Of a stretch of DNA of 64,000 bases, positions 6,257-48,309 are shown in pieces. The DNA is from Aphrocallistes beatrix (taxonomy: Eukaryota > Porifera > Hexactinellida > Sceptrulophora > Aphrocallistidae): the NCBI GenBank assembly GCA_963281255.1, contig OY725490.1, positions 2,108,001 to 2,172,000 of the forward strand. The letters run 5' to 3'. Every line of letters starts with the position of its first letter. Within the stretch, counting starts at the first letter, position 1. A model generated the notes under the pieces. The model was given only the letters and a program-made list of their open reading frames with translations, was not told the origin of the DNA and searched no databases. A program made the translations under genes and the position numbers.

Positions 6257-7522
6257 ATGGCAACGGCTATAGTAGTTCCACCTGACATATTAAGTTTTGA
6301 AGATGAAATCTCTGAAGCGAAACGCGAGATAGAAACTCGTTTCCGTGAGCTGATCAATCGCTTGAGAGAGAGGGAGAGAGAACTTGTGATTGAGTTGGAA
6401 CAGATTCTAGACACTTATAAGAGAGAAAGAGACAAACACGAACAATCTCAAACAGAGCTTGAAGCAGGGTTGAAGTTTGACGATCCAAATTCCAAATCAA
6501 CCGATCTTAACGAATTGAGTGATCCGATTATCCCACATTTAACAGGAGAAGATGAAAAGTTTAAATCTGAGTTCGATTGTAAGCGTGTCAGTGTTGAGTT
6601 TGATGAGACAGTATTGCGTTTAGCTGGTACTATTGGTAGAGTGACTGTTACTGACTCTACAAGACTAGCATCTCGTCTCCCTGTAGTAGAGTATGAGGGA
6701 AAAGTGTCTCCTGTACTCAATATAGGAGGGAAATCAAGTAGTAAGGAAGGCCAGTTCTCTCATCCTAATGGAGTAACAGTACACTACCTAACTGGTAATA
6801 TTTTCGTGGCAGATCAGTATAACCACAGAGTCCAAGTATTCGATAAAGATGCAAAGTATTTATTCAAGTTTGGAGATGGAGATGGAGATGGAGCTGGTAA
6901 GATGAAACATCCTGTTCGTATGGATTTCTACCAAAATAAAGTATTCGTATCTCAGCTCAAGCGCGATTGTTTGTTAGTTTACGATTTGAATGGCACTTTT
7001 CTCCAACAGATAGGAACTGCAGGGAACAGAGAAGGTCAGTTCAAAAACCCATATGGCATTACTATCAATCAGTCGAATGGAGAAATATTTGTATGTGACT
7101 ATAGTAATAGTAGAGTTCAAATTTTCTCAAATGATTTCCTATTCAAGTCTCAGTTTGGAAAACTAAGGTATCCTATCGACATAAAACTTACCAGCGAGTT
7201 CATCTATGTACTGAGTATCGTTAAACCTTTCCTCTATTGCTTCAGACATGACTTGACTCAGGTAGAGAGTCCTGTCCTCACTTCTATTTCCAAACAGTTG
7301 AGGACTCCTTGGTCATTCTGCATTGATGGTGCTGGTAACTTTATTATATCAGATCTCAACAAAAATTTTGTTATAATATTCGGTCATGAAGGAGATGTAG
7401 TTCATAGAATCACGGACAGCCTACAGAAACCCTTCCCCGGTTTGAAGCCGACTGGTGTCACATTGGATGGAAGAGGGAATATTATCCTTGCGTGCTACTT
7501 CAACCGTCTTCTAATATTTTGA
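6257..7522 (+). CDS. Coiled-coil plus NHL-propeller protein, copy 1 (421 aa)
   Basis: Starts at the family's conserved ATG (MATAIV). Residues ~10-110 are a charged, heptad-like coiled coil (RERERELVIELEQI). A short linker leads to six NHL repeats, which in known proteins form a beta-propeller that binds protein or RNA. Blades are marked by GQFSHPNGV..IFVAD, KHPVRM..VFVSQ, GQFKNPYGI..IFVCD, RYPIDIK..YVLS, RTPWSFC..IISD and TGVTLD..LLIF. The layout matches the C-terminal half of TRIM-NHL proteins, but there is no RING or B-box, so no ligase activity is predicted. No signal peptide or membrane segment is seen. Oddities: a GGAGAT hexamer expansion gives DGDGDG in blade 2, the coiled coil is diverged around residues 75-95, blade 6 has an insertion, and the stop is TGA where other copies use TAA. 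Function in the animal is unknown. Confidence 0.85.
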   Translation: MATAIVVPPDILSFEDEISEAKREIETRFRELINRLRERERELVIELEQILDTYKRERDKHEQSQTELEAGLKFDDPNSKSTDLNELSDPIIPHLTGEDEKFKSEFDCKRVSVEFDETVLRLAGTIGRVTVTDSTRLASRLPVVEYEGKVSPVLNIGGKSSSKEGQFSHPNGVTVHYLTGNIFVADQYNHRVQVFDKDAKYLFKFGDGDGDGAGKMKHPVRMDFYQNKVFVSQLKRDCLLVYDLNGTFLQQIGTAGNREGQFKNPYGITINQSNGEIFVCDYSNSRVQIFSNDFLFKSQFGKLRYPIDIKLTSEFIYVLSIVKPFLYCFRHDLTQVESPVLTSISKQLRTPWSFCIDGAGNFIISDLNKNFVIIFGHEGDVVHRITDSLQKPFPGLKPTGVTLDGRGNIILACYFNRLLIF

Positions 7523-7864
7523 AACTAATTTAATGTTGATTGAGATACTTTTCCCTTTATTTTTACTCTTCTTATTTGGTTTTCTTTCCTCTAACGTTTA
7601 GAATACTGATTTCCTATTTTTATGAATCTTTTTTTGTTTACTGGATTTAGTTTGTTCTTACTAATTTGCTTGATGTAAGATATTAATGGTTTCTGTATTG
7701 AGATTTGTAATTATTGATCCCAATTCTAATAATATTTACTTCTCAATTGCGATTCCTTTCAGTTAACTTTATTAGTTCCACTATTATCGTTCTGAAGATG
7801 TTAATTTAATTTGTTAAAATCCTTGAAAATTCATTCTGAAAGTTCATGTCGAATCATTGATGGC

Positions 7865-8177
7865 CAGGGTTGCCGTGGGAATGGGAATCTGTGGGTATTC
7901 CCATATGGGATGGGAATGGGAATGACTTTAAGCCTATGGGTATTCCCACATGTGGTTTCTGTGGGTTTTAGTGGGTTTCTGTGGGTTTACTTTTGGTATC
8001 TTCAGGCATCTGTCGGGATTCAGTGTGAAATCCTACTTAGGTAAATTCAATTGGTTTTTGCGAGTTTTTCTGTGGGTTTCTGTGGGTTTTTCTGTGGGAT
8101 TCTGTGGGTTTTTGTGGGTATTCCCACAGAAATCCTGTGGGAATGGGTATTGAAATTCCATTCCCACGGCAACCCTG
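7865..8177. mobile_element. hAT-type MITE with perfect 8-bp target duplication
   Basis: Terminal inverted repeats run from CAGGGTTGCCGTGGGAATG to CATTCCCACGGCAACCCTG. The interior is rich in GTGGG repeats. TTGATGGC is duplicated exactly at 7857-7864 and 8178-8185. Length is 313 bp and it is non-coding. Relatives lie at 16217-16382 and 41238-41430. The 8-bp duplication and CAGGG ends are hAT hallmarks. Confidence 0.9.
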
Positions 8178-8261
8178 TTGATGGCTCTTTGTTCTTGTTC
8201 GTTTTTTTGCGATTAAGATAAAATATACAAAGACTCTCTAATTAACTGGATTCTGAGTTGA

Positions 8262-8410
8262 TATGAAATTTGTTTATTATAAACTAACCTCCAGGTCCCA
8301 ATTTCATTTTTTAGATAGGATTTGTATTGTCAAGTTCTTTTAATAAGAGTATCTCCATTGGGAACAGATCTTTTGATCCCCTGGTGGTTTACAATAAGCG
8401 ACCTTGACTG
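8262..8410. mobile_element. Partial pogo/mariner-like MITE (CAGTCAGG family)
   Basis: The right end reads AAGCGACCTTGACTG followed by TA, as in the complete members at 12077 and 12382. The left end is degraded. Confidence 0.65.
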
Positions 8411-8706
8411 TATTTAAATTTATTATTTGGTTGCTCCTTTCTCGGTCCCCAAATACGACTACTCCCTTTAGCTTCCTTCCCTGCGCTTTGTCGTGCCTCG
8501 GGTTCCCAAGTTTAGAAATGTCCATAACCGGACACATAAAATTCATTTTGAGATCATTAAAGGTTCTTAGATGTGTTTATCCTACGACTAATTTAAGATT
8601 GAGATATACCTATGTACTGACATATTTGAACATATCCATTGAGCAATTAAGAAGGTGGGCATGTGTACAGGTGCGCTCCCTACGTCTCCTGTGTGCGCTG
8701 TCTCAG

Positions 8707-9259
8707 AATCGTGAACGGAGAGACTCGCATCGGACTGTTCGCCAACCGCGCAATCGGCAGCGGAGAAGAGCTGACGTTCGACTATCAGCTGGACTGCCTA
8801 GGCAACGAGCGCCTGGCTTGCAAGTGCGGGGCTGCGAACTGCTCCGGATACATCGGCCTGCGACCGCCGCCCTCTCTGCCGCAGGGAGAGAGCGGGAACG
8901 GCGGCGGGGGAGGGGGCGGGGGCGGCGGGAGCAAGGGCAGCAAGCGGAAAGGAGCGCCGAAGGGGAGCGCTTCCCGCCGCAGGAAGCGAAACCTGACCAC
9001 TCAGCTGCTGCAGCACGATGACGACTGCTTCGTGTGTCAGGACGGAGGTCTGCTGATCATGTGCGACTTCTGTCCGAAGGCGTACCACCTGGAGTGCGTG
9101 GAGCGGACAGAGCTGCCTCACGGTCAGTGGAAGTGTCCCTGGCACTTCTGCAATGTGTGCGGCGGCAACTCGAACATCCAATGCGAGATCTGTCCCAATT
9201 CGTACTGTCCCAACCACCTCGACCTGAACTTCCGAATCGAGAGCAACAAGTTCTTCTGA
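8707..9259 (+). pseudogene. NSD-type histone methyltransferase: C-terminal SET, post-SET and PHD/C5HCH fragment
   Basis: NSD-family enzymes methylate histone H3 Lys36 in the nucleus. This exon starts after a CTGTCTCAG acceptor. It encodes the end of a SET domain (VNGETRIGLFA, ELTFDY), a post-SET zinc cluster (CKCGAANCSGYIG), a Gly/Ser/basic linker, and the PHD-C5HCH pair typical of NSD1-3 (CFVCQDGG, CPKAYHLEC, CPWHFCNVCGG, CEICPNSYC). The NHSCxPN part of the SET domain and everything upstream are not found in the window. The frame stops at TGA 9257-9259, where the family has a zinc-binding Cys. The next codons read KEHS, as the family expects, and the frame stays open to a second TGA at 9356. 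Exon GC content is well above the surroundings. It could be a decayed fragment, or the 3' part of a gene whose other exons lie beyond the window, with a sequencing error at the TGA. Confidence 0.75.
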
Positions 9260-9359
9260 AAAGAGCACAGTAAGGTAGACATTTGTAATTATTACCTCCT
9301 TCACTCGGAGCGAGACCTGGACAGCGATTGCGTGGACGTTAAGCCCATGGTCTCCTGAA

Positions 9360-9880: not shown

Positions 9881-11164
9881 ATGGCAACGGCTATAGTAGC
9901 TCCACCTGAAATATTAAGTTTTGAAAATCAAATCTCTGAAGCAAAACGTGAGATAGAAACTCGTTTCCGTGAACTGATCAATCGCTTGAGAGAGAGGGAG
10001 AGAGAACTTGTGATTGAGTTGGAACAGATTCTAGACACTCGTAAGAGAGAAAGAGATAAACACAAACAATCTCTAACAGAACTTGAAGCAGGGTTGAAGT
10101 TTGCTAAAGAAAATTTAAAATCAAACGATCTTAACGAATTTACTGAGTCGATCATCAAAAAATTAACAGAAAAACGCGAAAAGTTTATATCTGAGTTCGA
10201 TTGTAAGCGTGTCAGTGTTGAGTTTAATGAGACAGTATTGCGTTTAGCTGGTACTATTGGTAGAGTGACTGTTACTGACTCGACTAGACTAGCATCTCGT
10301 CTCCTTGTAGTAGAGTATGAGGGAATAGTGTCTCGTCTCCCTGTAGTAGAGTATGAAGGAAAAGTGTCTCCTGTACTCAGTATGGGAGGAACATTAGGTG
10401 GTAAGAAAGGACAGTTCTCTAATCCTTTTGGAGTATCAGTACACTACTTAACTGGTAATATTTTCGTTGCAGATATGAGTAACAACAGAGTTCAAGTATT
10501 CGATAAAGATGGAAAGTATTTGTACAAGTTTGGAGATAAAGATGGAGCTGGTAAGATGGAAAATCCTGTTTGCATTGATTTCTTTCAAAATAAAGTATTC
10601 GTATCTCAAGCCACGAGTGATTGTTTGTTAGTTTATGATTTGAATGGCACTTTTCTCCAACAGATAGGAACTCAAGGTGAAGGAGAAGGTCAGTTTAATA
10701 ACCCACATGGCATTACTATCAATCAGTCTGATGGAGAAATATTTGTGTGTGACAGAAGCAATCATAGAGTCCAATTATTCTCTAAAGATCTTCAATTCAA
10801 GTCTCAGTTCGGACAAGGAATACTGATTTCTCCTGTTGACATAAAACTAACCAGCGAGTTCATTTATGTACTGACTGACACCAAATCTTTCCTCTTTTCC
10901 TTCAGACATGACCTAACTCAGGAACAGAGTCCTGTCCTCACTTCTATTTCCAAGCATTTGAAGAAATCTTTTTTATTCTGTATATATGGTGCTGGTAACT
11001 TTGTTATATCAGATAAAGATCAGAATGCTGTTATAATTTTCAATCATCAAGGAGATGTAGTTCATAGAATCACGGATGGCGTACAGAAACCGATGTGTGT
11101 CACACTAGATGCAAGAGGGAGAATTATCCTAGCAGGATACAACTACCGTCTTTTGATATTTTAA
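9881..11164 (+). CDS. Coiled-coil plus NHL-propeller protein, copy 2 (427 aa)
   Basis: ATG chosen at 9881 (MATAIVAPPE). The frame is open further 5', but only across the acceptor-like TTTAG and with no ATG. It has a complete coiled coil and six blades. Distinguishing feature: a 36-bp tandem duplication (10295-10330 and 10331-10366) doubles the VVEYEG linker segment before the propeller, adding 12 residues. Blade-variable residues include MSNN (blade 1), ATSD (blade 2), RSNH (blade 3), TDTKS (blade 4), KKSFLF and DKDQN (blade 5). All expected blade motifs are present, so it is probably functional. Confidence 0.85.
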   Translation: MATAIVAPPEILSFENQISEAKREIETRFRELINRLRERERELVIELEQILDTRKRERDKHKQSLTELEAGLKFAKENLKSNDLNEFTESIIKKLTEKREKFISEFDCKRVSVEFNETVLRLAGTIGRVTVTDSTRLASRLLVVEYEGIVSRLPVVEYEGKVSPVLSMGGTLGGKKGQFSNPFGVSVHYLTGNIFVADMSNNRVQVFDKDGKYLYKFGDKDGAGKMENPVCIDFFQNKVFVSQATSDCLLVYDLNGTFLQQIGTQGEGEGQFNNPHGITINQSDGEIFVCDRSNHRVQLFSKDLQFKSQFGQGILISPVDIKLTSEFIYVLTDTKSFLFSFRHDLTQEQSPVLTSISKHLKKSFLFCIYGAGNFVISDKDQNAVIIFNHQGDVVHRITDGVQKPMCVTLDARGRIILAGYNYRLLIF

Positions 11165-12076
11165 CACTTTGACTGTTGGTTGAAATACTTTATTCTTCAT
11201 TTATGTTTTATTTACAAACTTTGATCTTCTTACACTCACTTTCAGAATATTTTTGTGTTTATACCCTTTTATTTTGAATGGTTTATTCTGTTTAATGCCG
11301 GATAAGTTAAGCATTCGTAACTTCTGAATTAATTTTGTTGATCTGTAGTTTACTTCTGATTGTGAGTGTTAGGTGAGATTTGTTTGGTTTTCCATCAATG
11401 CTTTTGGAATGTCATTTTTCTTTGATTGATAATTTTTTTGTAATTTTGATCCGCAAGCCGCGAAGCGCGCTTGTTGTATATAAATGTCAAAGCTATTTTC
11501 TTAACAAAAGTGAATCGTTGATCAGTGAGATATTTGGAGGCTATAATATTTAAGGAAAATACATTGAATCGCACCAATCATATTATGATGGTAGAAATAT
11601 AGTTATATTTAGCATCAATTTCATACAGAAAATAGGCGGGTCCATTATAGAGTATTTGAAAACAGGTCCCAGGTCATCAGATCTTGTCTCACTAGCCACA
11701 GTTTGTCCACCACTCTTCTAAATATTCCTAAATTCTAAAATATCATTCGTAGAGTTAAAGCAACCTTGAACTCGACTGTACTCATTGCCTACTATATATA
11801 TAGTAGGCTATGCTCAAACAAATATTATCATTGATTCAGTAAACATTTTTCAAACACATTTGTTGTTCTTTATATATTTCTAAAATTGAATTTGAGTGTA
11901 AAGATACAGTTTCAGATTATTTAGGAAAATTATTAGATCCAATTCGCCGTTCAATCTTGATAGAAGTGAGAGAATTTGCGTGATAATTTGTATTTTAAAG
12001 ACTCAAGCTACTATTGGGTGAGTACTTTTGACACAAAGCACCTTAACTTCATTGTCACATGAAGAAATTGAGAATA
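11165..12076. other. 3' flank of copy 2, no gene recognised
   Basis: The first ~250 bases resemble the 3' flank of other copies. A GC-rich CGAAGCGCGCTTGTTG piece near 11460 is the end of the dispersed repeat seen at 5130. The ORF at 11395-11577 (-) has no recognisable content. Confidence 0.55.
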
Positions 12077-12261
12077 CAGTCAGGTTCGCTTATAATGAAC
12101 CCGCTTAATATGAACATTCGTTTATTATGAACAAACTCTCCAGTCCCAATTTAACAGGTTCCATAAGATTTGTATTAGGTCAAGTTTGCTTAATATGAAG
12201 TCTCTCTATTATGAACAGACTTTTTGGTCCCCAAGGTGTTCATAATAAGCGACCCTGACTG
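12077..12261. mobile_element. pogo/mariner-like MITE (CAGTCAGG family)
   Basis: Left end CAGTCAGGTTCGCTTAT, right end ATAAGCGACCCTGACTG, flanked by TA at 12075-12076 and 12262-12263. The ends are inverted repeats. Internal TTCATAATA/TATTATGAA motifs are shared with 12382-12567 and 61003-61169. Non-coding. Confidence 0.85.
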
Positions 12262-12381
12262 TATTTCTATTTTTGTTATTTTGCTTGTTATCTAATTACA
12301 AGCATGACTTCTCAACTCCATCTCTCTTCTATTATTCGTACAAAAACAGGATATTTCCATAAATGCAGCTTTATAAAACTA

Positions 12382-12567
12382 CAGTCAGGATCGCTTATTG
12401 TGAACCACCAGGGGACCAAAAAAATTTGTTCATAATAGAGATACTTCATAGTAAGCGAACTTGATTCAATACAAATCCTATCTAACGAATGAAATTGGGA
12501 CCAGGAGGTTAGTCCATAATAAACGAATGTTCATATTAAGCGGGTTCATGATAAGCAACCCTGACTG
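12382..12567. mobile_element. pogo/mariner-like MITE (CAGTCAGG family), inverted relative to the preceding copy
   Basis: Begins CAGTCAGGATCGCTTAT and ends AAGCAACCCTGACTG, flanked by TA on both sides. The internal sequence runs opposite to 12077-12261, so the two form a larger inverted pair ~120 bp apart. Confidence 0.85.
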
Positions 12568-12618
12568 TATTTAGTAGCATTTAATTAGTATTGCAGTAGA
12601 ACTAGGATCTATTAGTAG

Positions 12619-13282
12619 GGGGTGCATGCATTTGTCAGAATTTTGAAGCTGTCACTTGTCAGAATGGTTTTTAGGACTGCTGTCACTTGTCAGAATGGTT
12701 TTTAGGACTGCTGTCACTTGTCAGAATGGTTTTTAGGACTGCTGTCACTTGTCAGAATGGTTTTTAGGACTGCTGTCACTTGTCAGAATGGTTTTTAAGA
12801 CTGCTGTCACTTGTCAGAATGGTTTTTAGAAATGCTGTCACTTGTCAGAATGGTTTTTAAAGAATGGCGGATGTTTCGTCACTGATATTTCTTTGAATGA
12901 AATTAAAGAATCACTACTTTCATTCTCCCATTCATTCTACCAAATAATAAATGACAATCACCCACCCTCACGAAATAAAAAAACCACTCTCGCGTGCCAC
13001 TTTATATTATTTCAAACTCAAAATGCCTACTCTCACTTTCCTACCAATTCTATTCAACTCCATGTTTGCCAAAAAACCATTCTGACAAGTGACAGCAGTC
13101 CTAAAAACCATTCTGACAAGTGACAGCATTCTTAAAAACCATTCTGACAAGTGACAGCATTCTTAAAAACCATTCTGACAAGTGACAGCATTCTTAAAAA
13201 ACCATTCTGACAAGTGACAGCAGTCCTAAAACCAATTCTGACAAGTGACAACTAGGAAAATTCTGACAAATGCAACTCCCCC
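12619..13282. mobile_element. Foldback element with 31-bp array arms and 8-bp target duplication
   Basis: The ends are inverted repeats (GGGGTGCAT..TTTGTCAGAA and its complement). ATTAGTAG is duplicated exactly at 12611-12618 and 13283-13290. The left arm holds about seven tandem copies of a 31-bp unit containing CACTTGTCAGAATGG. The right arm holds about five or six copies in inverted orientation. A ~220 bp unique core lies between them. The 8-bp duplication suggests hAT mobilisation; the array-in-arm structure recalls foldback elements. The 93-codon ORF at 12842-13123 starts inside the array and is probably chance. Confidence 0.85.
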
Positions 13283-13292
13283 ATTAGTAGTA

Positions 13293-13793
13293 CTGTTGCG
13301 TGATATCTTGAGATCCTAGTATTAAGTAACCATGGATGATTTAGTACCGTTATATCTTGAGATCGTAATATTTTGAGATATCTAGCATTCGGAGATTTTG
13401 TTTGGCTCACTCAAATGGCCTTGTGGTTCAATAGGTTTCATTGTGGCACATGACAAAATTTGATGGACGCGACACAATTTAGTGGCATGTGCCACAATTT
13501 ATTATGGTAAAACCCTATATGGACCATGGATCAAATATATTTAAATAATTTATGATCCATATGGGGTTTTATCATAGTAAATTGTGTCGCATGCCACTAA
13601 GTTGTGTCGCGTCCATCAAATTTTGTCATGTGCCACAATAAAACCTATTGAACCACAAGGCCATTTGAGTGAGCCAAACAAAATCTCCGAATGCTAGATA
13701 TCTCAAAATATTACGATCTCAAGATATAACGGTACTAAATCATCCATGGTTACTTAATACTAGGATCTCAAGAGTCAAGATATCACGCAACAG
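13293..13793. mobile_element. Near-perfect ~500-bp palindromic element with TA duplication
   Basis: Two ~240-bp arms are reverse complements (start CTGTTGCGTGATATCTTGA, end TCAAGATATCACGCAACAG), centred near 13545 on an AT-rich turn. TA flanks both ends (13291-13292, 13794-13795). The left end abuts the target duplication of the preceding foldback element. No coding capacity. The TA target suggests the Tc1/mariner superfamily. Confidence 0.85.
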
Positions 13794-13922
13794 TACTTTT
13801 CCGCTTCCCTGAGGAGCATGCCTTATCCGAGTTCTACTGTATTTCCTATAATTGTATAAATGCCTGACTTCTTATTTTATGTAATATATTTTTTGGTAAT
13901 TTAAGGTTGTTTAATTAATTAA

Positions 13923-14168
13923 CCCTCGCCTGGCTAGGTCTCAAAAGTATAAATAGAGAAAACCCCACTTTCATTTTCACTTTCAGTTCACTTTCAATGT
14001 ACTTTCATTTTCACTTTCAACATTCCTAGCCAGCCGCGGGTTAATAATATCCCTCGGTTGGCTAGGAATGTTGAAAGTGAAAATGAAAGTACATTGAAAG
14101 TGAACTGAAAGTGAAAATGAAAGTGGGGTTTTCTCTATTTATACTTTTGAGACGTAGCCAGGCGAGGG
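13923..14168. mobile_element. Composite piggyBac-like MITE: two ~118-bp units head to head
   Basis: Unit 1 (13923-14040) runs CCCTCGCCTGGCTAGG to CCTAGCCAGCCGCGGG and is flanked by TTAA at 13919 and 14041. Unit 2 (14051-14168) is its near-perfect reverse complement. Each unit carries TATAAATAGA followed by alternating CTTTCA motifs. The same composite, with the same spacer type, is at 32619-32863. Single units are at 37604 and 45724. The flank of NHL copy 2 (~9770) lacks it and so represents the empty site. Confidence 0.8.
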
Positions 14169-14286
14169 TTTTAAAATCACAATTATTCATAAAACATTTG
14201 AATTTATCTCGAAGTAACTCTTAAATAATTAATTCTTAGTTCCTCTACAATTTATTTCATTTCCATATATGTTTAGAATTTGTGTT

Positions 14287-15534
14287 ATGGCAACGGCTAT
14301 AGTAGCTCCACCTGAAATATTAAGTTTTGAAAATCATCTCTCTGAAGCAAAACGTGGGATAGAAATTCGTTTCCGTGAACTGATCAATCGCTTGAGAGAG
14401 AGGGAGAGAGAACTTGTGATTGAGTTGGAACAGATTCTAGACACTTACAAGAGAGAAAGAGATAAACACAAACAATCTTTAACAAAACTTGAAGCAGGGT
14501 TGAAGTTTGCCAAAGAAAATTTCAAATCAAACGATCTTAACGAATTTACAGAGTCGATCATCAAAAAATTAGCCGAAAAACGCGAAAAGTTTAAATCTGA
14601 GTTCGATTGTAAGCGTGTCAGTGTTGAATTTGATGAGACAGTATTGCGTTTAGCTGGTACTATTGGTAGAGTGACTGTTACTGACTCGACTAGACTAGCA
14701 TCTCTTCTCCCTGCGGTAGAGTATGAGGGAAGAGTGCCTCCGGTACTCAGTATAGGAGGAACATTAGGTGGTAAGGAAGGACAGTTCTCTTATCCTCATG
14801 GAGTATCAGTACACTACTTAACTGGTAATATTTTCGAAGCAGATTCAGGTAACCACAGAGTTCAAGTATTCGATAAAGATGGAAAGTATTTGTATAAGTT
14901 TGGAGATAGAGATGGAGCTGGTAAAATGAAATTTCCTGTTCGTGTTGATTTCTACCAAAATAAAGTATTCGTATCTCAGTACACTGGTGGTTGTTTGTTA
15001 GTTTACGATTTGAATGGCACTTTTCTTCAACAGATAGGAACTCCAGGAAATGGAGAAGGTCAGTTTAATAACCCACTTGGCATTACTATCAATCAGTCTA
15101 ATGGAGAAATATTTGTATGTGACAGAAGCAAAAATAGAGTTCAAATAATCTCCAAAGATTTCCAATTCAAGTCTCAGTTCGGACAAGGAATACTGAAGTA
15201 TCCTATTGACATAAAACTAACTAGCGAGTTCATTTATGTACTGAGTCACAACAAACCTTTCTTCTATTCATTCAGACATGATCTAACTCAGATACAGAGT
15301 CCTGTCCTCACTTCTATTTCCAAACATTTGAAGACACCTTGGTCATTCTGTATAGATGGTGTTGGTAACTTTATTATATCAGATCGCGACCAGAATGCTG
15401 TTATAATATTCAATCATCAAGGAGATGTAGTTCATAGAATCACGAATAGCGTACAGTTACCGATAGGCCTCACACTAGATGCAAGAGGGAGAATTCTCCT
15501 AGTAGGCGACAACCACCGTCTTCTAATATTTTAA
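14287..15534 (+). CDS. Coiled-coil plus NHL-propeller protein, copy 3 (415 aa)
   Basis: The cleanest reference copy. Coiled coil at residues 10-110, linker 110-155, blades at about 166-205, 213-245, 256-293, 301-332, 347-378 and 386-415. The ATG at 14287 follows the conserved TTTAG plus AATTTGTGTT leader. Variable residues: SGNH (blade 1, residues 187-190), YTGG (blade 2, 232-235), RSKN (blade 3, 280-283), HNK (blade 4, 321-323), RDQ (blade 5, 367-369), DNH (blade 6, 408-410). IFVAD is changed to IFEAD in blade 1. No lesion is seen. Confidence 0.85.
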   Translation: MATAIVAPPEILSFENHLSEAKRGIEIRFRELINRLRERERELVIELEQILDTYKRERDKHKQSLTKLEAGLKFAKENFKSNDLNEFTESIIKKLAEKREKFKSEFDCKRVSVEFDETVLRLAGTIGRVTVTDSTRLASLLPAVEYEGRVPPVLSIGGTLGGKEGQFSYPHGVSVHYLTGNIFEADSGNHRVQVFDKDGKYLYKFGDRDGAGKMKFPVRVDFYQNKVFVSQYTGGCLLVYDLNGTFLQQIGTPGNGEGQFNNPLGITINQSNGEIFVCDRSKNRVQIISKDFQFKSQFGQGILKYPIDIKLTSEFIYVLSHNKPFFYSFRHDLTQIQSPVLTSISKHLKTPWSFCIDGVGNFIISDRDQNAVIIFNHQGDVVHRITNSVQLPIGLTLDARGRILLVGDNHRLLIF

Positions 15535-18489: not shown

Positions 18490-19725
18490 ATGGCAACGGC
18501 TATAGTAGTTCCACATGAAATATTAAGTTTTGAAAATCGAATCTATGAAGCAAAACGTGAGATAGAATCTCGTTTCCGTGAACTGATCAATCGCTTGAGA
18601 GAGAGGGAGAGAGAACTTGTGATTGAGTTGGAACAGATTCTAGACACTTATAAGAGAAAAAGAGATAAACACCAACAATCTCTAACAGAACTTGAAGCAG
18701 GGTTGAAGTTTGCCAAAGAAAACGATCTTAACGAATTTAGAAATTCCGTCATCCAACAATTAACAGAAAAACGTGAAAAGTTTAGATCTGAGTTCGATTG
18801 TAAGCTTGTCAGTGTTGAGTTTGATGAGACAGTATTGCGTTTAGCTGGTACTATTGGTAGAGTGACTGTTATTGACTCCGCTAGACTAGCATCTCGTTTC
18901 CCTGTAGTAGAGTATGAGGGAAGAGTGTCTCCTGTACTCAGTATAGGAGATACATATGGTGACAAGAAAGAACAGTTCTCTCATCCTACTGGAGTTTCAG
19001 TAGACTGCCTAACTGGTAATATTTTCGTAGGAGATTGTTTTAACGACAGGCTTCAAGTATTCGATAAAGATGGAAAATATTTGTACAAGTTTGGGGATAG
19101 AGATGGAGCTGGTAAGATAAAACGTCCTCTTTGTATAGATTTCTACCAAAATCAAATATTCGTATCTCAGCGCACGGGTGGTTGTTTGTTTCTTTGCGAT
19201 TTGAATGGCACTTTCCTCCAACAGATAGGAACTCCAGGGAATGGAGAAGGTCAGTTTTATAACCCACATGGCATTGCTATCAATCAGTCTAATGGAGAAA
19301 TATTTGTATGTGACCGTGGTAATAATAGAGTTCAAATATTCTCGAAATATTTTCGATTCAAGTCTCAGTTTGGAAAAGGAATACTGAAGTCTCCTACTGA
19401 CATAAAACTAACCAGCGAGTTCATGTATTTACTGATTACCACCAAACCTTTCCTCTATTGCTTCAAGCACGACCTAACTCAGGTACAGAGTCCTGTCCTC
19501 ACTTCAATTTCCAAACATTTGAAAAATCCTTGGTCATTCTGTATAGATGGTGCTGGTAACTTTATTATATCAGATTACGATCTGAATGCTGTTATAATAT
19601 TCAATCATCAAGGAGATGTAGTTCATAGAATCACGGATAGCGTACAGAAACCGATGGGTGTCACACTAGATGCAAGAGGGAGAATTCTCCTAGTAGGCGA
19701 CAACCACCGTCTTCTGATATTTTAA
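18490..19725 (+). CDS. Coiled-coil plus NHL-propeller protein, copy 4 (411 aa)
   Basis: ATG chosen at 18490 by homology. An in-frame ATG at 18454 exists but would translate through the conserved acceptor-like TTTAG. The coiled coil is four residues shorter than in copy 3 (KENDLNEF, missing the NFKS residues). Variable residues: CFND (blade 1), RTGG (blade 2), RGNN (blade 3), ITTK (blade 4), YDLN (blade 5). Blade 2 has CLFLCDLNG where others have CLLVYDLNG. No lesion is visible. Confidence 0.85.
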   Translation: MATAIVVPHEILSFENRIYEAKREIESRFRELINRLRERERELVIELEQILDTYKRKRDKHQQSLTELEAGLKFAKENDLNEFRNSVIQQLTEKREKFRSEFDCKLVSVEFDETVLRLAGTIGRVTVIDSARLASRFPVVEYEGRVSPVLSIGDTYGDKKEQFSHPTGVSVDCLTGNIFVGDCFNDRLQVFDKDGKYLYKFGDRDGAGKIKRPLCIDFYQNQIFVSQRTGGCLFLCDLNGTFLQQIGTPGNGEGQFYNPHGIAINQSNGEIFVCDRGNNRVQIFSKYFRFKSQFGKGILKSPTDIKLTSEFMYLLITTKPFLYCFKHDLTQVQSPVLTSISKHLKNPWSFCIDGAGNFIISDYDLNAVIIFNHQGDVVHRITDSVQKPMGVTLDARGRILLVGDNHRLLIF

Positions 19726-24711: not shown

Positions 24712-24846
24712 GTTAGTTGTAATGATAAGTTAAATGATAAAATAAAATCATATATTTGTTAGGTATGTTTCGGTACGCGTACTTGTACTTAACTGTATCC
24801 TTTGGAGGAATAGATCTCTGTATTGGACATCCTAAACACACATACC

Positions 24847-27344: not shown

Positions 27345-28592
27345 ATGGCAACGGCTAAAGAAGCTCCACCTGAAATATCAAGTTTTGAAAATGAAATCTC
27401 TGAAGCAAAACGTGAGATAGAAACTCGTTTCCGTGAACTGATCAATCGCTTGAGAGAGAGGGAGAGAGAACTTGTGATTGAGTTGGAACAGATTCTAGAA
27501 ACTTATAAGAGAGAAAGAGATAAACACAAACATTCTCTAATAACAGAACTCGAAGCGAAGTTGAAGTTTGCCAAAGAAAATTTCAAATCAAACGATCTAA
27601 ACGAATTTACTGAGTCGATTATCCAACAATTAACTGAAAAACGTGAAAAGTTTAAATCGGAGTTCGATTGTAAGCTTGTCAGTGTTGAGTTTGATGAGAC
27701 AGTATTGCGTTTAGCTGGTACTATTGGTAGAGTGACTGTTACTGACTCGACTAGACTAGCATCTCGTCTCTCTGTAGTAGAGTATGAGGGAATAGTGTCT
27801 CCTGTACTCAGTATAGGAGGAGAATCAGGTGATAAGGAAGGACAGTTCTCTTCTCCTTTTGGAGTATCAGTACACTACCTAACTGGTAAGATTTTCGTAG
27901 CAGATCAATGTAACCACAGAGTTCAAGTATTCGATAAAGATCAAAAGTATTTGTACAAGTTTAGAGATAGAGATGGAGCTGGTAAGATGAAAAAACCTCT
28001 TCGTGTTGATTTCTATCAAAATAAAGTATTCGTTTCTCAGCGTAGTGGTTGTTTGTTGGTTTACGATTCGAATGGCACTTTTCTCCAACAGATAGGAACT
28101 CCAGGGAATGGAGAAGGTCAGTTTGACCAGCCACATGGCATTACTATCAATCATTCTAATGGGGAAGTTTTTGTATGTGACTATAGTAATAATAGAGTTC
28201 AAATATTCTCAAAAGATTTCTTATTCAAGTCTCAGTTCGGACAAGGAATACTGAAGTATCCTATTGACATAAAACTATCCAGCGAGTTCATTTATGTACT
28301 GAGTCACAACAAACCTTTCCTCTATTCATTCAGACATGACCTAACTCAGATACAGAGTCCTGTCCTCACTTTTATTTCCAAGCATTTGGGCAGTCCTTGG
28401 TCATTCTGTATAGATGGTGCTGGTAACTTTATTATATCAGATTACAATCAGAATGCTATTATAATATTCAATCATCAAGGAGATGTATTTCATAGAATCA
28501 CGGATAGCGTAAAGAGTCCGACTTGTGTCACACTAGATGTAAGAGGGAGAATTATCCTAGTAGGATACAACCACAGTCTTCTGATATTTTAA
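27345..28592 (+). CDS. Coiled-coil plus NHL-propeller protein, copy 6 (415 aa)
   Basis: ATG at 27345 (MATAKEAPPE). Intact coiled coil with one extra residue (HSLITELEA) and a complete six-blade propeller. Variable residues: QCNH (blade 1), RSG with one residue fewer than most copies (blade 2), YSNN (blade 3), SHNK (blade 4), GSPW and YNQN (blade 5), SPTCV and GYNH (blade 6). The leader has GATTTTGTGTT instead of AATTTGTGTT after the acceptor-like TTTA. No lesion. Confidence 0.85.
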   Translation: MATAKEAPPEISSFENEISEAKREIETRFRELINRLRERERELVIELEQILETYKRERDKHKHSLITELEAKLKFAKENFKSNDLNEFTESIIQQLTEKREKFKSEFDCKLVSVEFDETVLRLAGTIGRVTVTDSTRLASRLSVVEYEGIVSPVLSIGGESGDKEGQFSSPFGVSVHYLTGKIFVADQCNHRVQVFDKDQKYLYKFRDRDGAGKMKKPLRVDFYQNKVFVSQRSGCLLVYDSNGTFLQQIGTPGNGEGQFDQPHGITINHSNGEVFVCDYSNNRVQIFSKDFLFKSQFGQGILKYPIDIKLSSEFIYVLSHNKPFLYSFRHDLTQIQSPVLTFISKHLGSPWSFCIDGAGNFIISDYNQNAIIIFNHQGDVFHRITDSVKSPTCVTLDVRGRIILVGYNHSLLIF

Positions 28593-29408: not shown

Positions 29409-29410
29409 TA

Positions 29411-30736: not shown

Positions 30737-31974
30737 ATGGCAACGGCTGTAGTAGCTCCACCTGAAATAATAAGTTTTGAAAATCAAATCTCTGAAGCAA
30801 AACGTGAGATAGAAACTCGTTTCCGTGAGCTGATCAATCGCTTGAGAGAGAGGGAGAGAGAACTTGTGATTGAGTTGGAACAGATTCTAGACACTTATAA
30901 GAGAGAAAGAGATAAACACAAACAATCTCTAACAGAACTTGAAGCAGGGTTGAAGTTTGCCAAAGAAAATTTCAAATCAAACGATCTTAACGAATTTACA
31001 GAGTCGAACATCAAAAAATTAACGGAAAAACGTGAAAAATTTAAATCTGAGTTCGATTGTAAGCGTGTCAGTGTTGAGTTGATGAGACAGTATTGCGTTT
31101 AGCTGGTACTATTGGTAGAGTGACTGACTCGACTAGACTAGCATCTCGTCTCCCTGTAGAAGAGTATGAGGGAAAAGTGTCTCCTGTACTCAGTATTGGA
31201 GGGACATTAGGTGGTGAGGAAGGACAGTTCTCTTCTCCTTTTGGAGTATCAGTACACTACCTAACTGGTAATATTTTCGTATCAGATCAATGTAACAACA
31301 GAGTTCAAGTATTCGATAAAGATGGAAGGTATTTGTACAAGTTTGGAGATAGAGTTGGAGCTGGTAAGATGAAAAATCCTTTTTGTATAGAATTCTACCA
31401 AAATAGAGTATTCGTATCTCAGTACACGGGTGGTTGTTTGTTTGTTAACGATTTGAATGGCACTTTTCTCCAACAGATAGGAACTCCAGGGAATGGAGAA
31501 GGTCAGTTTAACCAACCACTTGGTATTGCTATCAATCAGTCTAATGGGGAAATATTTGTATGCGACTTTGGTAATAACAGAGTTCAAATATTCTCAAAGG
31601 ATTTCCTATTCAAGTCTCAGTTCGGACAAGGAATACTGAAGTACCCTTCTGACATAAAACTAACCAGCGAGTTCATTTATGTAATGAGTTGCAGCAAACC
31701 TTTCCTCTTTTCCTTCAGACATGACCTAACTCAGATACAGAGTCCTGTCCTCACTTCTATTTCCAAGCATTTGGAGTATCCCTTGTCATTCTGTGTAGAT
31801 GGTGCTGGTAACTTTATTATATCAGATTATAGCCAGAATGCTGTTATAATATTCCATTATAATGGAGATTTAGTTCATAGAATCAGGGGTTGCGTCCAGG
31901 AACCGGCTTGTGTCACACTAGATGCGAGAGGGAGAATTATCCTATTACACGACCACCGTCTTCTGATATTTTAA
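30737..31974 (+). pseudogene. Coiled-coil plus NHL-propeller gene, copy 7, frameshifted after the coiled coil
   Basis: ATG at 30737. One T is missing from the GAGTTTGATGAG context near 31080, so the first frame ends at 31102; the second continues to the normal stop at 31974. From ~31090 to ~31510 it is almost identical to the next gene (34131), including a 6-bp deletion that removes two linker residues (GRVTDST instead of GRVTVTDST). Beyond that the two diverge (blade 3 FGNN versus LRNN). Blades are otherwise intact. Confidence 0.8.
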
Positions 31975-34130: not shown

Positions 34131-35372
34131 ATGGCAACGGCTATAGTAGCTCCACCTGAAATATTAAGTTTTGAAAATCAAATCTCTGAAGCAAAACGTG
34201 AGATAGAAACTCGTTTCCGTGAGCTGATCAATCGCTTGAGAGAGAGGGAGAGAGAACTTGTGATGGAGTTGGAACAGATTTTAGACACTTATAAGAGAGA
34301 AAGAGATAAACACAAACAATCTCTAACAGAACTTGAAGCAGGGTTGAAGTTTGCCAAAGAAAATTTCAAATCAAACGATCTTAACGAATTTACAGAGTCG
34401 ATCATCCAAAAATTAACTGAAAAACGTGAACAGTTTAAATCTGAGTTCGATTGTAAGCGTGTCAGTGTTGAGTTTGATGAGACAGTATTGCGTTTAGCTG
34501 GTACTATTGGTAGAGTGACTGACTCGACTAGACTAGCATCTCGTCTCCCTGTAGAAGAGTATGAGGGAAAAGTGTCTCCTGTGCTCAGTATTGGAGGGAC
34601 ATTAGGTGGTGAGGAAGGACAGTTCTCTTCTCCTTTTGGAGTATCAGTACACTACCTAACTGGTAATATTTTCGTATCAGATCAATGTAACAACAGAGTT
34701 CAAGTATTCGATAAAGATGGAAGGTATTTGTACAAGTTTGGAGATAGAGTTGGAGCTGGTAAGATGAAAAATCCTTTTTGTATAGAATTCTACCAAAATA
34801 GAGTATTCGTATCTCAGTACACGGGTGGTTGTTTGTTTGTTAACGATTTGAATGGCACTTTTCTCCAACAGATAGGAACTCCAGGGAATGGAGAAGGTCA
34901 GTTTAATAATCCATGTGGCATTACTGTCAATCAGTCTAATGGAGAAATATTTGTATGCGACCTTAGAAATAATAGAGTTCAAATATTCTCCAAAGATTTT
35001 CAATTCAAGTCTCAGTTCGGACAAGAAATACTGAAATATCCTACTGACATAAAACTAACCAGCGAGTTCATTTATGTACTGAGTTTCACCGAACCTTTCT
35101 TCTATTCATTCAGACATGACCTAACTCAGATACAGAGTCCTGTCCTCACTTCAATTTCCAAGCAATTAAACTATCCTTGTTCATTCTGTATAGATGGTAC
35201 TGATAACTTTATTATATCAGATCGTGATCAAAATGCTGTTATAATATTCAATCATCAAGGAGATGTAGTTCATAGAATCACGGATAGCATACAGAAACCG
35301 ATAGGCGTCACACTAGATGCAAGAGGGAGAATTATCCTAGTAGGATACAACCACCGTCTTCTGATCTTTTAA
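34131..35372 (+). CDS. Coiled-coil plus NHL-propeller protein, copy 8 (413 aa)
   Basis: ATG at 34131, intact to TAA. It has the same 6-bp linker deletion and the same blade 1-2 sequence as the broken neighbour copy 7 (SDQCNN, QYTGGC, LFVNDLNG), but its own blades 3-6 (LRNN, SFTEP, NYPCSF, RDQN, IGV). Blade 5 has DGTDNF where others have DGAGNF. Confidence 0.85.
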   Translation: MATAIVAPPEILSFENQISEAKREIETRFRELINRLRERERELVMELEQILDTYKRERDKHKQSLTELEAGLKFAKENFKSNDLNEFTESIIQKLTEKREQFKSEFDCKRVSVEFDETVLRLAGTIGRVTDSTRLASRLPVEEYEGKVSPVLSIGGTLGGEEGQFSSPFGVSVHYLTGNIFVSDQCNNRVQVFDKDGRYLYKFGDRVGAGKMKNPFCIEFYQNRVFVSQYTGGCLFVNDLNGTFLQQIGTPGNGEGQFNNPCGITVNQSNGEIFVCDLRNNRVQIFSKDFQFKSQFGQEILKYPTDIKLTSEFIYVLSFTEPFFYSFRHDLTQIQSPVLTSISKQLNYPCSFCIDGTDNFIISDRDQNAVIIFNHQGDVVHRITDSIQKPIGVTLDARGRIILVGYNHRLLIF

Positions 35373-37720: not shown

Positions 37721-37729
37721 TTTAATAGA

Positions 37730-40605: not shown

Positions 40606-40669
<64 letters not shown>

Positions 40670-43555: not shown

Positions 43556-43556
43556 T

Positions 43557-44490: not shown

Positions 44491-44587
44491 TGATATAAAT
44501 ATCGAAGCACTGCAAGATGAAACAACTCAAATGCTTGGAAAATGATAGTAACAAACATAAATATAATTTCAGAACATTTAAAGACGT

Positions 44588-45040
44588 GGGACTTCATGAC
44601 CGAGTGGTTAGCGCACTGAGTCTATAACAAAGTGGCGCAGGTTCGAATCCCAAGCAAGTCAACAAAATTTCAGTATTCTAAAGTAACAAACATAAATATA
44701 ATTTTAGAACATTTTAAAGACATGGGACTTCATGGTCGAGTGGATAGCGCACTCAGTCTATAACAAAGTGCCGCAGGTTCGAATCCCAAGCAAGTCAACA
44801 AAATTTCAGTATTCCAGAGTACCAAACATAAATATAATTTTAGAACATTTTAAAGACATGGGACTTCATGGTCGAGTGGTTAGCGCACTCAGTCTATAAC
44901 AAAGTGCCGCAGGTTCGAATCCCAAGCAAGTCAACAAAATTTCAGTATTCTAAAGTAACAAACATAAATATAATTTTAGAACATTTTAAAGACATTGGAC
45001 TTCATGGTCGAGTGGTTAGCGCGTTGCTGTATCAATATGC
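44588..45040 (+). repeat. Tandem 136-bp repeats carrying a 71-nt tRNA-like sequence
   Basis: Starts at 44588, 44724, 44860 and 44996; the last is truncated after the A box. Each full unit has a 71-nt segment with A box TGGTCGAGTGG and perfect B box GGTTCGAATCC. The first five bases GACTT pair with the final AAGTC. Anticodon and T stems are poorly paired, so these look like tRNA-derived (SINE-like) units rather than functional tRNA genes. The 65-bp remainder is AT-rich. Confidence 0.7.
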
Positions 45041-45327
45041 TCCGTGCTTTAAAAAAACAAACATTTTAGAAAAATGTTAAGAAATGAAAGAAAAAATGGA
45101 AAGAATATAGAGAGTCAGTCATTCTAGGAACAAAGCTGTAGATAGGTAGAACCGGGACACATAATAATTTCATGACAGGAAAGGAATCATTGGTAAATGT
45201 CAAGGAAAACATAGTAACAAGTTCGAGACGGTGGGGCAAAGAGATCAAAAATGAATGGTAAATTTTAAAAATATCTGTCGGCAGAGTGTGAACTGAGCTA
45301 AAAAGAAAAAGAACAGATGACAGAGAG

Positions 45328-45412
45328 GAAGGGTAAAGGTAAGGGTAAGGGTAAGGGTAAGGATAAGGGTAAGGGTAAGGGTAAGGGTAAGGGTAAGGGT
45401 AAGGGTAAAAGT
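45328..45412. repeat. GGGTAA hexamer array
   Basis: About fourteen copies of GGGTAA with few changes, directly before the minisatellite. The hexamer is not a rotation of the animal telomere repeat TTAGGG or its complement. Confidence 0.9.
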
Positions 45413-45479
45413 AAAGAACTGTTTATCGAAAAGTGCCACAGAGTAACTACTACGCAGAACCATAGCAAATGTTCAGATT

Positions 45480-46455
45480 GATCAGGTTAGTCTGTCAGGT
45501 TAAACCGGTTTGACAGGTTAAACCGGTTTGACAGGTTAAACTGGTTTGACTGGTTAAACCGGTTTGACTGGTTAAACAGGTTTGACAGGTTAACCTGGTT
45601 TGACTGGTTAAACTGGTTTGACTGGTTAAACAGGTTTGTCAGGTAAAACTGGTTTGACTGGTTAAACCGGTTTGACAGGTTAAACTGGTTTGACTGGTTA
45701 AACCGGTTTGACTTGTTAATTAACCCGCGCTTGGCGAGGTGTTTTGTAGCGTCATTTCCTGTTTAAGCCATTTTCAATGGGGAAGCCATACAAGTTTGGG
45801 GTCTGACTATAAATAGAAAAAAATCACTTAGCCAAGCGCAGGTTAAACCGGTTTGACTGGTTAAACTGGTTTGACTGGTTAAACCGGTTTGACAGGTTAA
45901 ACTGGTTCGACTGGTTAAATCGGCTTGAAAGGTTAAACTGGTTTGACTGGTTAAACCTGTTTGACAGGTTAAACTGGTTTGACAGGTTAAACCTGTTTGA
46001 CTAGTTAAACTGGTATGACAGGTTAAACCGGTTTGACTGGTTAAACCTGTTTGACAGGTTAAACCGGTTTGACTGGTTAAACTGATTTGACTGGTTAAAC
46101 AGGTTTGACTAGTTAAACCGGTTTGACAGGTTAAACCGGTTTGACTGGTTAAACTGGTTTGACAGGTTAAACTGATATGACAGGTTAAACAGGTTTGACA
46201 GGTTAAACAGGTTTGACAGGTTAAACTGGTTGGACAGGTTAAACAGTTTTGACTGATTAAACAGTTTTGACAGGTTAAACTGGTTGGACTGGTTAAACTG
46301 GTTTGACAGGTTAAATAGGTTTGACAGACTAAACAGGTTTGTCTGGCTATACCGGTTTGACAGGTTAACCCAGTTCGACTGGTTAAACCGGTTTGACTGG
46401 TTAAACTGGTTCGACTGGTTAAACCGGTTTGACTGGTTAAACAGTTGACTGTTTA
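45480..46455. repeat. 18-bp minisatellite rich in AACCGGTT palindromes
   Basis: Alternating 9-mers GGTTTGACA/GGTTTGACT and GGTTAAACC/GGTTAAACT, roughly fifty 18-bp units, interrupted once by the TTAA-flanked MITE at 45724. Each unit is close to an inverted repeat of itself, so single strands could fold. Confidence 0.9.
45724..45842. mobile_element. piggyBac-like MITE unit inserted in the minisatellite
   Basis: TTAA|CCCGCGCTTGGCGAGG to CTTAGCCAAGCGCAGG|TTAA. It contains CTATAAATAG near the right end. The flanking minisatellite supplies the TTAA target (GGTTAAACC). The interior differs from the CTTTCA-rich members, so it is a related subfamily. Confidence 0.8.
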
Positions 46456-46864
46456 AACTTTAAATGCTAGAGGGCTATCGGAAGAGCTGAGATAAGATCC
46501 CAGAATATTTAAATACATCGATCTGGGATTGAATTTACTTCAAGTTCCAGGGATTACGCAGCCCTATGCAAGGGTATTGGTTACTTCACATTGTGACTAG
46601 AATTGGGAAAATCGATTGTGGATAGCGGTTCCACTTTATGTTCACTATCAAGAAATAGTTTCAAGAAAATGCTGTCTGCAAATTCCTATCCAAAGAAGCA
46701 ATCTTTGGTATGGCATCTGGAAATTTGATGGAAACTGTCTCTGAGGTAGAATTATTGTATATCTACTTAAGTATAAGTAATCTCCAAACTGCGCAGAAAT
46801 TCATCGTTGTGTTTCATCATTAATCACAGGCTGTAGCAGTGACTTGATATATTTAAGACTGTTC

Positions 46865-47020
46865 AATCTCTGGATTAGCTCCATTATAGTCTCAGTGAGT
46901 TTCACTATAATTAACTTTGTTAGAATGAGTTTCAGTTAAATTCATTCTACAAACTATTGAAATCTCTTCAACAATTCGCTTCTTTGGATCTTTCTTATTT
47001 GTTATCGACTATTGAAACAG
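46865..47020 (+). promoter_or_regulatory. Conserved leader block, copy 6 (diverged)
   Basis: ATTATAGTCTCAGTGAG..GAGTTTCAGTTAAATTC..TTCTTATTTGTTATCGAC to TTGAAACAG|GTTAGT. More diverged than the others. Upstream of the truncated NHL gene at 47419. Confidence 0.4.
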
Positions 47021-47418
47021 GTTAGTTGTAATTGTTTAGCTAAATGCTATATTCAGTGTCTCCTGTAATTCAGGTCCGCTCACTTTTTAAAATTAATCAA
47101 CTTCATTCATAATTTCATTAATTCAGATCAATTAAATTCATAGAGCATTCGAGCATAAACTGATAAACCAACACGAATGCCGAATATCTTTGTACATACG
47201 TAGTTCTGATCTTGAAATGCAAAATAAGTAGAACTCGGTTAAGAGTATCAGTCTAGGGAACCAGAAAAAGTTACGTACTAACCGAGGTACGTCTTATCCG
47301 TATGCATAATCCACAAGTAATGCAGAGTGAACAACTAAAATTATGACTTGTACGATGATGTACGTAAATATTATGTGCTATGTAGAACATACAAGTCTCC
47401 AACATCCTCAACGATAAG

Positions 47419-48309
47419 ATGGCATGTCCTCAGTCAAAAGATGTCACATCCTCAGACTCGACCACACTAGCGTCCCGCCGCCCTGTAGTAGAGTATGAGG
47501 GAAAAGTGTCTCCTGTACTAACTATAGGAGGGACGAAAGGTCGTAAGGATGGACAGTTCTCTTTTCATTATGGAGTAGCAGCTGTACACTACCTAACTGG
47601 TAATATCTTCGTAGCAGATTCAGGTAAAGACAGAGTTCAAGTATTCGATAAAGATGGAAAGTATTTGTATAAGTTTGGAGATAGAGATGGAGCTGGTAAG
47701 ATGGAATTACCTGTTTGCATAGATATCTACCAAAACAAAGTATTCGTATCTCAGGACGCGGGTGATTGTTTGTTAGTTTATGATTTGAATGGCACTTTTC
47801 TCCAACAGATAGGAACTCCAGGGAATAGAGAAGGTCAGTTTTACCAACCACATGGCATTACTATCAATCAGTCTAATGGAGAAATATTTGTATGTGACTT
47901 TTCTAATAATAGAGTTCAAATATTCTCAAAAGATTTCCAATTCAAGTCTAAATTCGGACAAGGAATACTGAAGTTTCCTAATGCCATAAAACTAACGAAC
48001 GAGTTCATTTATGTACTGAGTAACACCAAACCTTTCATATTTTTCATCAAACATGACCTAACTCAGGTACAGAGTCCTGTCGTCACTTCCATTTCCAAGC
48101 ATTTGAAGAGACCCTTGTCATTCTGTATAGATGGTGCTGGAAACTTTCTTATATCAGACTACGATCAGAATGCTGTTATAATATTCAATCATCGAGGAGA
48201 TGTAGTCCATAGAATCACGGATAGCGTACACCAACCGGTGGGTATCTCACTAGATGCAAGAGGGGGAATTATCGTAGTACGTCTGCATCAACCTCTTCTC
48301 ATATTTTAA
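47419..48309 (+). CDS. NHL-propeller protein without coiled coil, copy 11 (296 aa)
   Basis: The frame from ATG 47419 begins with ~13 residues unrelated to the family (MACPQSKDVTSSD) and then joins the linker at STTLASRRPVVEYEG. All six blades follow to TAA. The upstream DNA (47340-47420) matches the non-coding flank at ~21510-22110, so the new N-terminus came from former upstream or intron sequence after loss of the coiled-coil coding part. Variable residues: SGKD (blade 1), DAGD (blade 2), FSNN (blade 3), SNTK (blade 4), YDQN (blade 5), RLHQ (blade 6). One residue is inserted in blade 1 (VAAVHY). Either a propeller-only protein or a truncated pseudogene with a chance ATG. Confidence 0.65.
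   Translation: MACPQSKDVTSSDSTTLASRRPVVEYEGKVSPVLTIGGTKGRKDGQFSFHYGVAAVHYLTGNIFVADSGKDRVQVFDKDGKYLYKFGDRDGAGKMELPVCIDIYQNKVFVSQDAGDCLLVYDLNGTFLQQIGTPGNREGQFYQPHGITINQSNGEIFVCDFSNNRVQIFSKDFQFKSKFGQGILKFPNAIKLTNEFIYVLSNTKPFIFFIKHDLTQVQSPVVTSISKHLKRPLSFCIDGAGNFLISDYDQNAVIIFNHRGDVVHRITDSVHQPVGISLDARGGIIVVRLHQPLLIF

Follow-up and report, generated by a model that had tools for sequence, protein, structure and literature searches.

A tandem array of coiled-coil and NHL-propeller genes in the glass sponge Aphrocallistes beatrix varies under selection on one propeller face

A tandem array of NHL-propeller genes

The window analysed here is a 64,000-nucleotide (nt) stretch of the genome of the glass sponge Aphrocallistes beatrix (contig OY725490.1, here C3, positions 2108001-2172000; 100.5 Mb in 28 contigs). 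It contains 11 NHL gene copies arranged head to tail on the + strand (6257-48309), and the intact ones encode a coiled coil followed by a six-bladed NHL propeller (CC-NHL). Strong diversifying selection acts on the d-a and b-c loop residues, which line the same face in all blades, and the family is large, tandemly duplicating and recombining. An initial annotation, made from the letters alone, had counted eleven copies; tblastn of the window located all of them (7 intact, 4 broken) and the remnant of a further one, and the scaffold motifs and blade-1 variants that it had quoted are present in the copies. Each intact copy is a single open reading frame (ORF) of 411-427 residues. The copies, and the hypervariable positions of copy 3, are as follows (aa, amino acids).

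6257..7522, + strand: CC-NHL copy 1, intact, 421 aa
9881..11164, + strand: CC-NHL copy 2, intact, 427 aa; linker with a 36-bp tandem duplication at 10295-10370
14287..15534, + strand: CC-NHL copy 3, intact, 415 aa; the copy used for the site numbers and for the AlphaFold2 (AF2) model
14791..14856, + strand: hypervariable registers of blade 1 in copy 3, residues 169-190, flanks of P170 and D186
Copy 3, blades 2-6: equivalent registers at residues 216-233, 262-281, 305-322, 350-368 and 391-409
18490..19725, + strand: CC-NHL copy 4, intact, 411 aa
22491..23733, + strand: CC-NHL copy 5, frameshifted
27345..28592, + strand: CC-NHL copy 6, intact, 415 aa
30737..31974, + strand: CC-NHL copy 7, frameshifted
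34131..35372, + strand: CC-NHL copy 8, intact, 413 aa
38739..39983, + strand: CC-NHL copy 9, intact, 414 aa
41951..43195, + strand: CC-NHL copy 10, interrupted by an internal stop, ORF of 377 aa
47443..48309, + strand: CC-NHL copy 11, lacking the N-terminal coiled coil
49124-49413, + strand: remnant of copy 12, reduced to its C-terminal blades (tblastn)

A near-identical unbroken counterpart of copy 10, a 415-aa protein (P0009), exists in another assembly. Copies 7 (31120-31419) and 8 (34515-34814) share a 300-nt tract with a printed identity of 100%, which is the product of a recent exchange or duplication. The genome contains at least 101 matches to the family, mostly clustered on contigs C3, C12, C1 and C9, and the C3 cluster extends past the window, both leftwards (L009) and, in inverted orientation, in an arm that lies about 50 kb further right. 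Five family copies lie at C12:4250346-4265110 with a regular spacing of 3,380 bp, 4 of them with equal match scores; this run is a very recent tandem amplification. For the genome-wide alignment proposed by the initial annotation, 52 intact ORFs were collected, a part of all genomic copies.

Architecture of the encoded proteins and their upstream regions

In the AF2 model of copy 3, two long helices (residues 9-78 and 82-105) are followed by a linker and then by the NHL propeller of six blades (residues 151-415), which has predicted local distance difference test (pLDDT) values of 90-96 by block. The nearest solved structures were the NHL domains of Thin, TRIM71/LIN41, TRIM2 and Brat, with Foldseek TMt values of 0.84 to Thin (6xg7) and 0.84-0.85 to TRIM71 (8j72). 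A Pfam scan of three copies matched NHL (PF01436) in all three, gave TRIM_CC/PML_CC matches under the curated cut-off, and found no RING, B-box, NACHT or WD40 domain in any of them. The absence of RING and B-box agrees with the initial annotation and rules out the identity of a TRIM-NHL E3 ligase, with which the fold is shared; the absence of NACHT and WD40 rules out a fungal NWD protein. Elsewhere in the genome there are 24 B-box matches, none of which lies inside the four gene clusters; for one of them, a RING can be recognised by eye in the same ORF. No secretion signal was spotted by eye in the intact ORFs of the window; no predictor was run.

All 52 intact ORFs have an acceptor-like [TC]AG 5-20 nt upstream of the ATG, a loose pattern given here without a computed chance rate. 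The distance from [TC]AG to ATG is 8-19 nt over the 52 ORFs, and is 10 nt in 16 of the 18 genes of clade A (defined below). Of the 52 ORFs, 31 carry the stricter TTAG at a distance of 8-14 nt upstream of the ATG (18/18 in clade A, 13/34 in the others), compared with 3.4% of random places. The distance between acceptor and ATG changes phase between clades, so that the upstream exon is probably non-coding and an in-frame upstream exon is unlikely. With the B-box matches lying outside the clusters, this makes a RING encoded on an upstream exon unlikely. Leader trans-splicing has been reported for Aphrocallistes vastus, in the part of that literature drawn on here; hence, the acceptor-like site may be a trans-splice (spliced-leader) site. 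A shared promoter was rejected as an explanation, upstream identity being 0.34-0.44 beyond -50 compared with 0.70 in the last 50 nt.

Diversifying selection on one face of the propeller

Starting from the variable positions claimed by the initial annotation, 24 registers were fixed beforehand, four in each blade: the two flanks of the conserved Pro (P-1 and P+1) and the two positions that follow the conserved Asp, or the residue equivalent to it (D+1 and D+2). Blade 4 has no such Asp, and its b-c loop (residues 321/322) was set by alignment and DSSP. Two groups of genes were analysed, namely clade A (18 intact genes) and clade B (26 genes, most of them on C12, after removal of 4 of 30). In clade A, the mean pairwise amino-acid difference was 0.68 at the registers and 0.15 over the remaining NHL domain; the values for clade B were 0.61 and 0.12, respectively. 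The same positions vary in every blade. The faces are all distinct (18/18 in clade A, 26/26 in clade B).

Site models fitted on one tree assigned 7.4% of clade A codons an ω (ratio of nonsynonymous to synonymous rates) of 4.2, with twice the log-likelihood difference (2ΔlnL) being 155.7 for M1a/M2a, 189.4 for M7/M8 and 147.8 for M8a/M8. Four segment trees, which allow for recombination, gave 125.9 (M1a/M2a) and 122.6 (M8a/M8) for the same clade. In clade B, 3.9% of codons had an ω of 5.2, with 2ΔlnL of 287.0 (M1a/M2a) and 252.7 (M8a/M8). Taken as a class, the 24 registers had an ω of 2.32 in clade A (p 4e-5 against 1) and 1.81 in clade B (p 3e-4 against 1). For clades A and B, respectively, ω was 0.34 and 0.36 in the a-b and c-d loops of the opposite face, and 0.43 and 0.42 over the other NHL positions. 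A two-part model returned similar register values: 2.31 for clade A on one tree (2ΔlnL 16.7), 2.20 on four trees (13.5), and 1.82 for clade B (13.0). The nonsynonymous rate (dN) at the registers was 8-9 times that of the remaining NHL domain.

The 24 registers hold 17 of the 21 positive sites of clade A (Fisher p 6e-18) and 15 of the 18 of clade B (Fisher p 7e-16), and in the single-tree tests of both clades the opposite-face loops and the coiled coil hold none (0/51 and 0/97, respectively). The sites outside the registers (160, 190, 349 and 390 in clade A; 190, 219 and 261 in clade B) belong to the same two loops or to the start of strand a. The d-a and b-c loops of a propeller lie on the same side of it, which makes the signal one-sided by topology. 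The clustering of sites with dN/dS above 1 on a single face, which the initial annotation had put forward, was thus observed, and none of the patterns set beforehand as speaking against it (scattered sites, synonymous-like rates, the opposite face) occurred.

Recombination was detected in both clades by the pairwise homoplasy index (PHI), the observed value being reached by 0 of 300 permutations in each. For clade A, 33 of 40 planned simulations without selection on the discordant segment trees finished; their maximum 2ΔlnL was 22.34, one seventh of the observed value. In 60 further clade A simulations with recombination and neutral registers, register ω had a mean of 1.01 and a maximum of 1.61, and 2ΔlnL did not exceed 3.85 where ω was above 1 (60/60); therefore, the register test is not inflated by recombination. 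A recombination artefact as the main cause was rejected on the four-tree fits and on null simulations far from the observed values. Relaxed constraint was likewise rejected, with an ω of about 0.4 in the remaining NHL domain while that of the registers exceeds 1.

The variable face and its possible ligands

In LIN41, 14 residues that touch or pack against RNA are named in the passages of PMC5908797 used here. Of the 14, 13 fall on our registers (P-1, P+1, D+1 or D+2) and one lies a single residue away, at P-2; all 14 identities match the alignment offset. On this match, the hypervariable face of the sponge proteins corresponds to the known binding face of NHL propellers. Between zebrafish and mammalian TRIM71 the registers are identical at 20/20 positions (five blades), and the other compared positions at 99/110. 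Register variability is therefore not inevitable in NHL domains, and an explanation of the sponge pattern as an inevitable property of NHL faces is ruled out.

The chemistry of the face differs from that of LIN41. Tyr, Ser and Asn are the commonest residues at the 24 registers, Thr and His are also frequent, and charge is low: Lys plus Arg make up 8.3% in clade A and 5.6% in clade B, and Asp plus Glu 5.8% and 2.6%, respectively. A conserved basic ligand cavity was not found, the Lys and Arg residues (5.6-8.3%) not being conserved, as judged from composition without an electrostatic calculation. Such a Tyr/Ser/Asn-rich and weakly charged face is unlike the basic cavity of LIN41, so that protein or glycan ligands are more likely than RNA. 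The composition bears on an alternative that we consider unlikely, that the array is an RNA-recognition repertoire in which every propeller would bind an RNA of its own, from a virus, a transposon or the sponge itself, through its face as Brat and LIN41 do. Its basis is the coincidence of the hypervariable registers with the RNA-contact registers of LIN41 and the closeness of the propellers to the NHL structures of Thin, TRIM71/LIN41, TRIM2 and Brat. Yet Arg or Lys accounts for 8 of the 14 named LIN41 contacts, and RNA binding of the LIN41 type needs a basic cavity according to the same passages (PMC5908797), whereas Lys and Arg are few on the sponge face.

Homologues and a second assembly

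Homologues of at least 390 aa (142 proteins) were analysed by cluster, 8 proteins in five smaller clusters being set aside; Oopsacas minuta is the only organism named among the homologues listed. Five clusters other than that of the source species have 5 to 32 members and mean identities of 45-49% to the reference. In these five, the 48 extended registers (of 268 positions in total) contain 12-18 of the 22 NHL positions that vary most, and their variable positions overlap the clade A sites with hypergeometric p values of 5e-4 to 4e-13. Representatives of four clusters had a best full-length identity of 54% to the source genome, and the fifth cluster contains four named Oopsacas proteins; hence, all five are taken to come from other genomes.

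A second assembly has 19 listed proteins on one contig of 272,179 bases. Five of them have no counterpart of at least 95% identity in the sequences compared, which were the whole C3 cluster and part of the remaining genome, and one protein (P0007) is a mosaic of two copies. The differences between assemblies hint at haplotype turnover, though some may come from assembly error.

Several points weigh against a recognition repertoire diversified by selection on this face: (i) the face was assigned by topology, from strand order and DSSP, rather than measured from coordinates; (ii) the site models were run with custom GY94 F3x4 code on iqtree2 branch lengths and without multi-nucleotide mutations; (iii) under recombination the site models overstate significance, with 12 of the 33 null simulations above the nominal 5% limit; (iv) in the four-tree run of clade A, site 93 in the coiled coil reached a P of 0.97; (v) NHL faces differ between TRIM-NHL subfamilies (cited passages of PMC5908797 and PMC9070667), some divergence of the face being ordinary; (vi) the polymorphism between individuals that the initial annotation had proposed to examine was checked weakly, with the proteins of the one second assembly, and, among the 59 differences counted over 11 matched pairs, 9 fell at registers (p 0.007), a modest enrichment of differences that are not independent, 4 of the 9 lying in one tract; and (vii) the synonymous rate is raised at the 24 registers, 1.53-fold in clade A (p 0.067) and 2.09-fold in clade B (p 1e-4), which leaves room for a mutational or gene-conversion effect. 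The rise in clade A falls inside the range simulated for that clade, the only one simulated.

The last point, together with the strong recombination and the presence of broken copies, would fit a mechanical diversification without selection (a hotspot, targeted mutagenesis or gene conversion) or a relaxed constraint on decaying duplicates. We regard this explanation as very improbable: register ω exceeds 1 in both clades, compared with about 0.4 in the remaining NHL domain and 0.35 in the opposite loops, and the clade A null simulations with recombination stayed far below the observed statistics.

Other features of the window

The following features lie between or beside the array copies.

528-614: short array related to the 18-bp repeat at 45496-46442
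8663-9256, + strand: short ORF matching SET, PHD and NSD C5HCH, in a GC-richer patch between array copies; by these matches, a predicted piece of an NSD-type histone methyltransferase
12073-14170: stretch from copy 2 towards copy 3 with clustered large inverted repeats (222 nt, 96%; 123 nt, 97%) and 31-bp tandem arrays; probably hairpin-type mobile elements
24823-25479, + strand: ORF whose N-terminal part resembles a coiled coil by eye, without a Pfam match above the family cut-off; may be an exon of a further coiled-coil gene
44547-45022: 136-bp unit repeated 3.5 times, with tRNA-like A and B boxes by eye; ARAGORN in its bacterial code setting gave no tRNA
45329-45408: AAGGGT array, preceding the 18-bp repeat array
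45496-46442: about 52 copies of the 18-bp repeat CAGGTTAAACCGGTTTGA
51534-56771, + strand: separase (Peptidase C50), a single open frame of 1745 aa
60533-61024, + strand: ORF with a DUF5600 match
62086-63999, - strand: Ser/Arg-rich protein kinase (Pkinase), PRPF4B-like by eye, crossing the window edge

Discussion

Diversified recognition by these propellers is strongly supported. Of the recognition family proposed in the initial annotation, the diversifying selection on one face stands, and an immune or self/non-self role is what we infer from it. On the evidence of the genes, the array is probably a germline-diversified recognition repertoire, its most likely function being intracellular non-self sensing. 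The proteins, which lack RING and B-box and combine a coiled coil of putative TRIM type with a six-bladed NHL propeller, are probably intracellular. Within such a germline-encoded set, each copy would act as a receptor with a specificity of its own, and microbes, viruses or allogeneic cytoplasm are possible targets. The coiled coil would dimerise the receptor; through it, RING/B-box TRIM proteins encoded separately in this genome could join as effectors.

Any co-evolving interface would fit the selection and its localisation, and the variable faces could instead serve a non-immune partner, through gamete recognition, management of an archaeal symbiont, or subfunctionalisation of paralogues with co-evolving self partners. 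An abundant archaeal symbiont has been described in the trabecular syncytium of Oopsacas (cited passages of PMC10280926). The copy number, the broken copies, the mosaic exchange and the all-distinct faces are more typical of non-self repertoires, and the inspection by eye for secretion signals in the intact window ORFs, for which no predictor was run, also speaks against such a role, which seems to us rather unlikely.

A non-self repertoire of this kind can be compared with several known systems. The TRIM-NHL proteins (TRIM71/LIN-41, Brat, Mei-P26 and the Thin/TRIM32 group) likewise have a coiled coil followed by a six-bladed NHL propeller, and in the sources cited above for LIN41 the same face and registers serve ligands. 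They have RING and B-box domains, whereas the sponge copies have neither and are single open frames in tandem arrays; the ligand registers, so conserved in TRIM71 between zebrafish and mammals, are hypervariable in the sponge and poor in basic residues. The antiviral expansions of TRIM-SPRY (B30.2) proteins, such as TRIM5 and the fish finTRIMs, combine a coiled coil with a variable C-terminal domain whose loops are positively selected, as in the sponge family; they differ in having SPRY instead of NHL and in the presence of RING and B-box. Within glass sponges, a tandem block of AIG1-domain genes in A. vastus is likewise an expansion, mostly of single-exon genes, for which a recognition role has been suggested (PMC10282587, in the section cited); its domain is AIG1 instead of NHL.

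The closest functional parallel, by analogy, appears to be the fungal NWD family. In the NWD/HNWD genes of Podospora anserina (het-d, het-e; NACHT-WD40), positive selection acts on codons 7 and 9 of the repeat, on either side of a conserved residue in the d-a loop, and on codons 25 and 27, placed likewise in the b-c turn (cited part of PMC1805685). The same topological positions are therefore selected in both families, flanking conserved residues in the d-a and b-c loops, and both combine a conserved propeller scaffold with exchange between copies and a single interaction face. The differences are that (i) NWD proteins join WD40 repeats to a NACHT effector, whereas the sponge proteins join NHL to a coiled coil; (ii) NWD variation lies among repeats exchanged between genes, and sponge variation among paralogues with distinct blades; and (iii) the function of NWD proteins is proven, whereas that of the sponge family is predicted.

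Such an NHL repertoire was not reported in the titles and abstracts of the open-licence PMC literature searched, and two papers on glass sponge genomes (one of them PMC10282587) nowhere use the term NHL in their main texts. Glass sponge tissues are syncytial (PMC10280926), as are filamentous fungi, according to the passages drawn on here. A tentative and somewhat doubtful extension of the analogy is that glass sponges convergently evolved an intracellular propeller repertoire for non-self, with the geometry of the fungal heterokaryon-incompatibility receptors, that would police a cytoplasm shared through the syncytium.

We know of no earlier recognition repertoire built on NHL propellers, and to our knowledge little is known of the self/non-self receptors of this early-branching animal lineage. 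If the extension is true, a syncytial animal would have converged with the likewise syncytial fungi; the roughly 24 residues per protein identified here provide a concrete list for testing.

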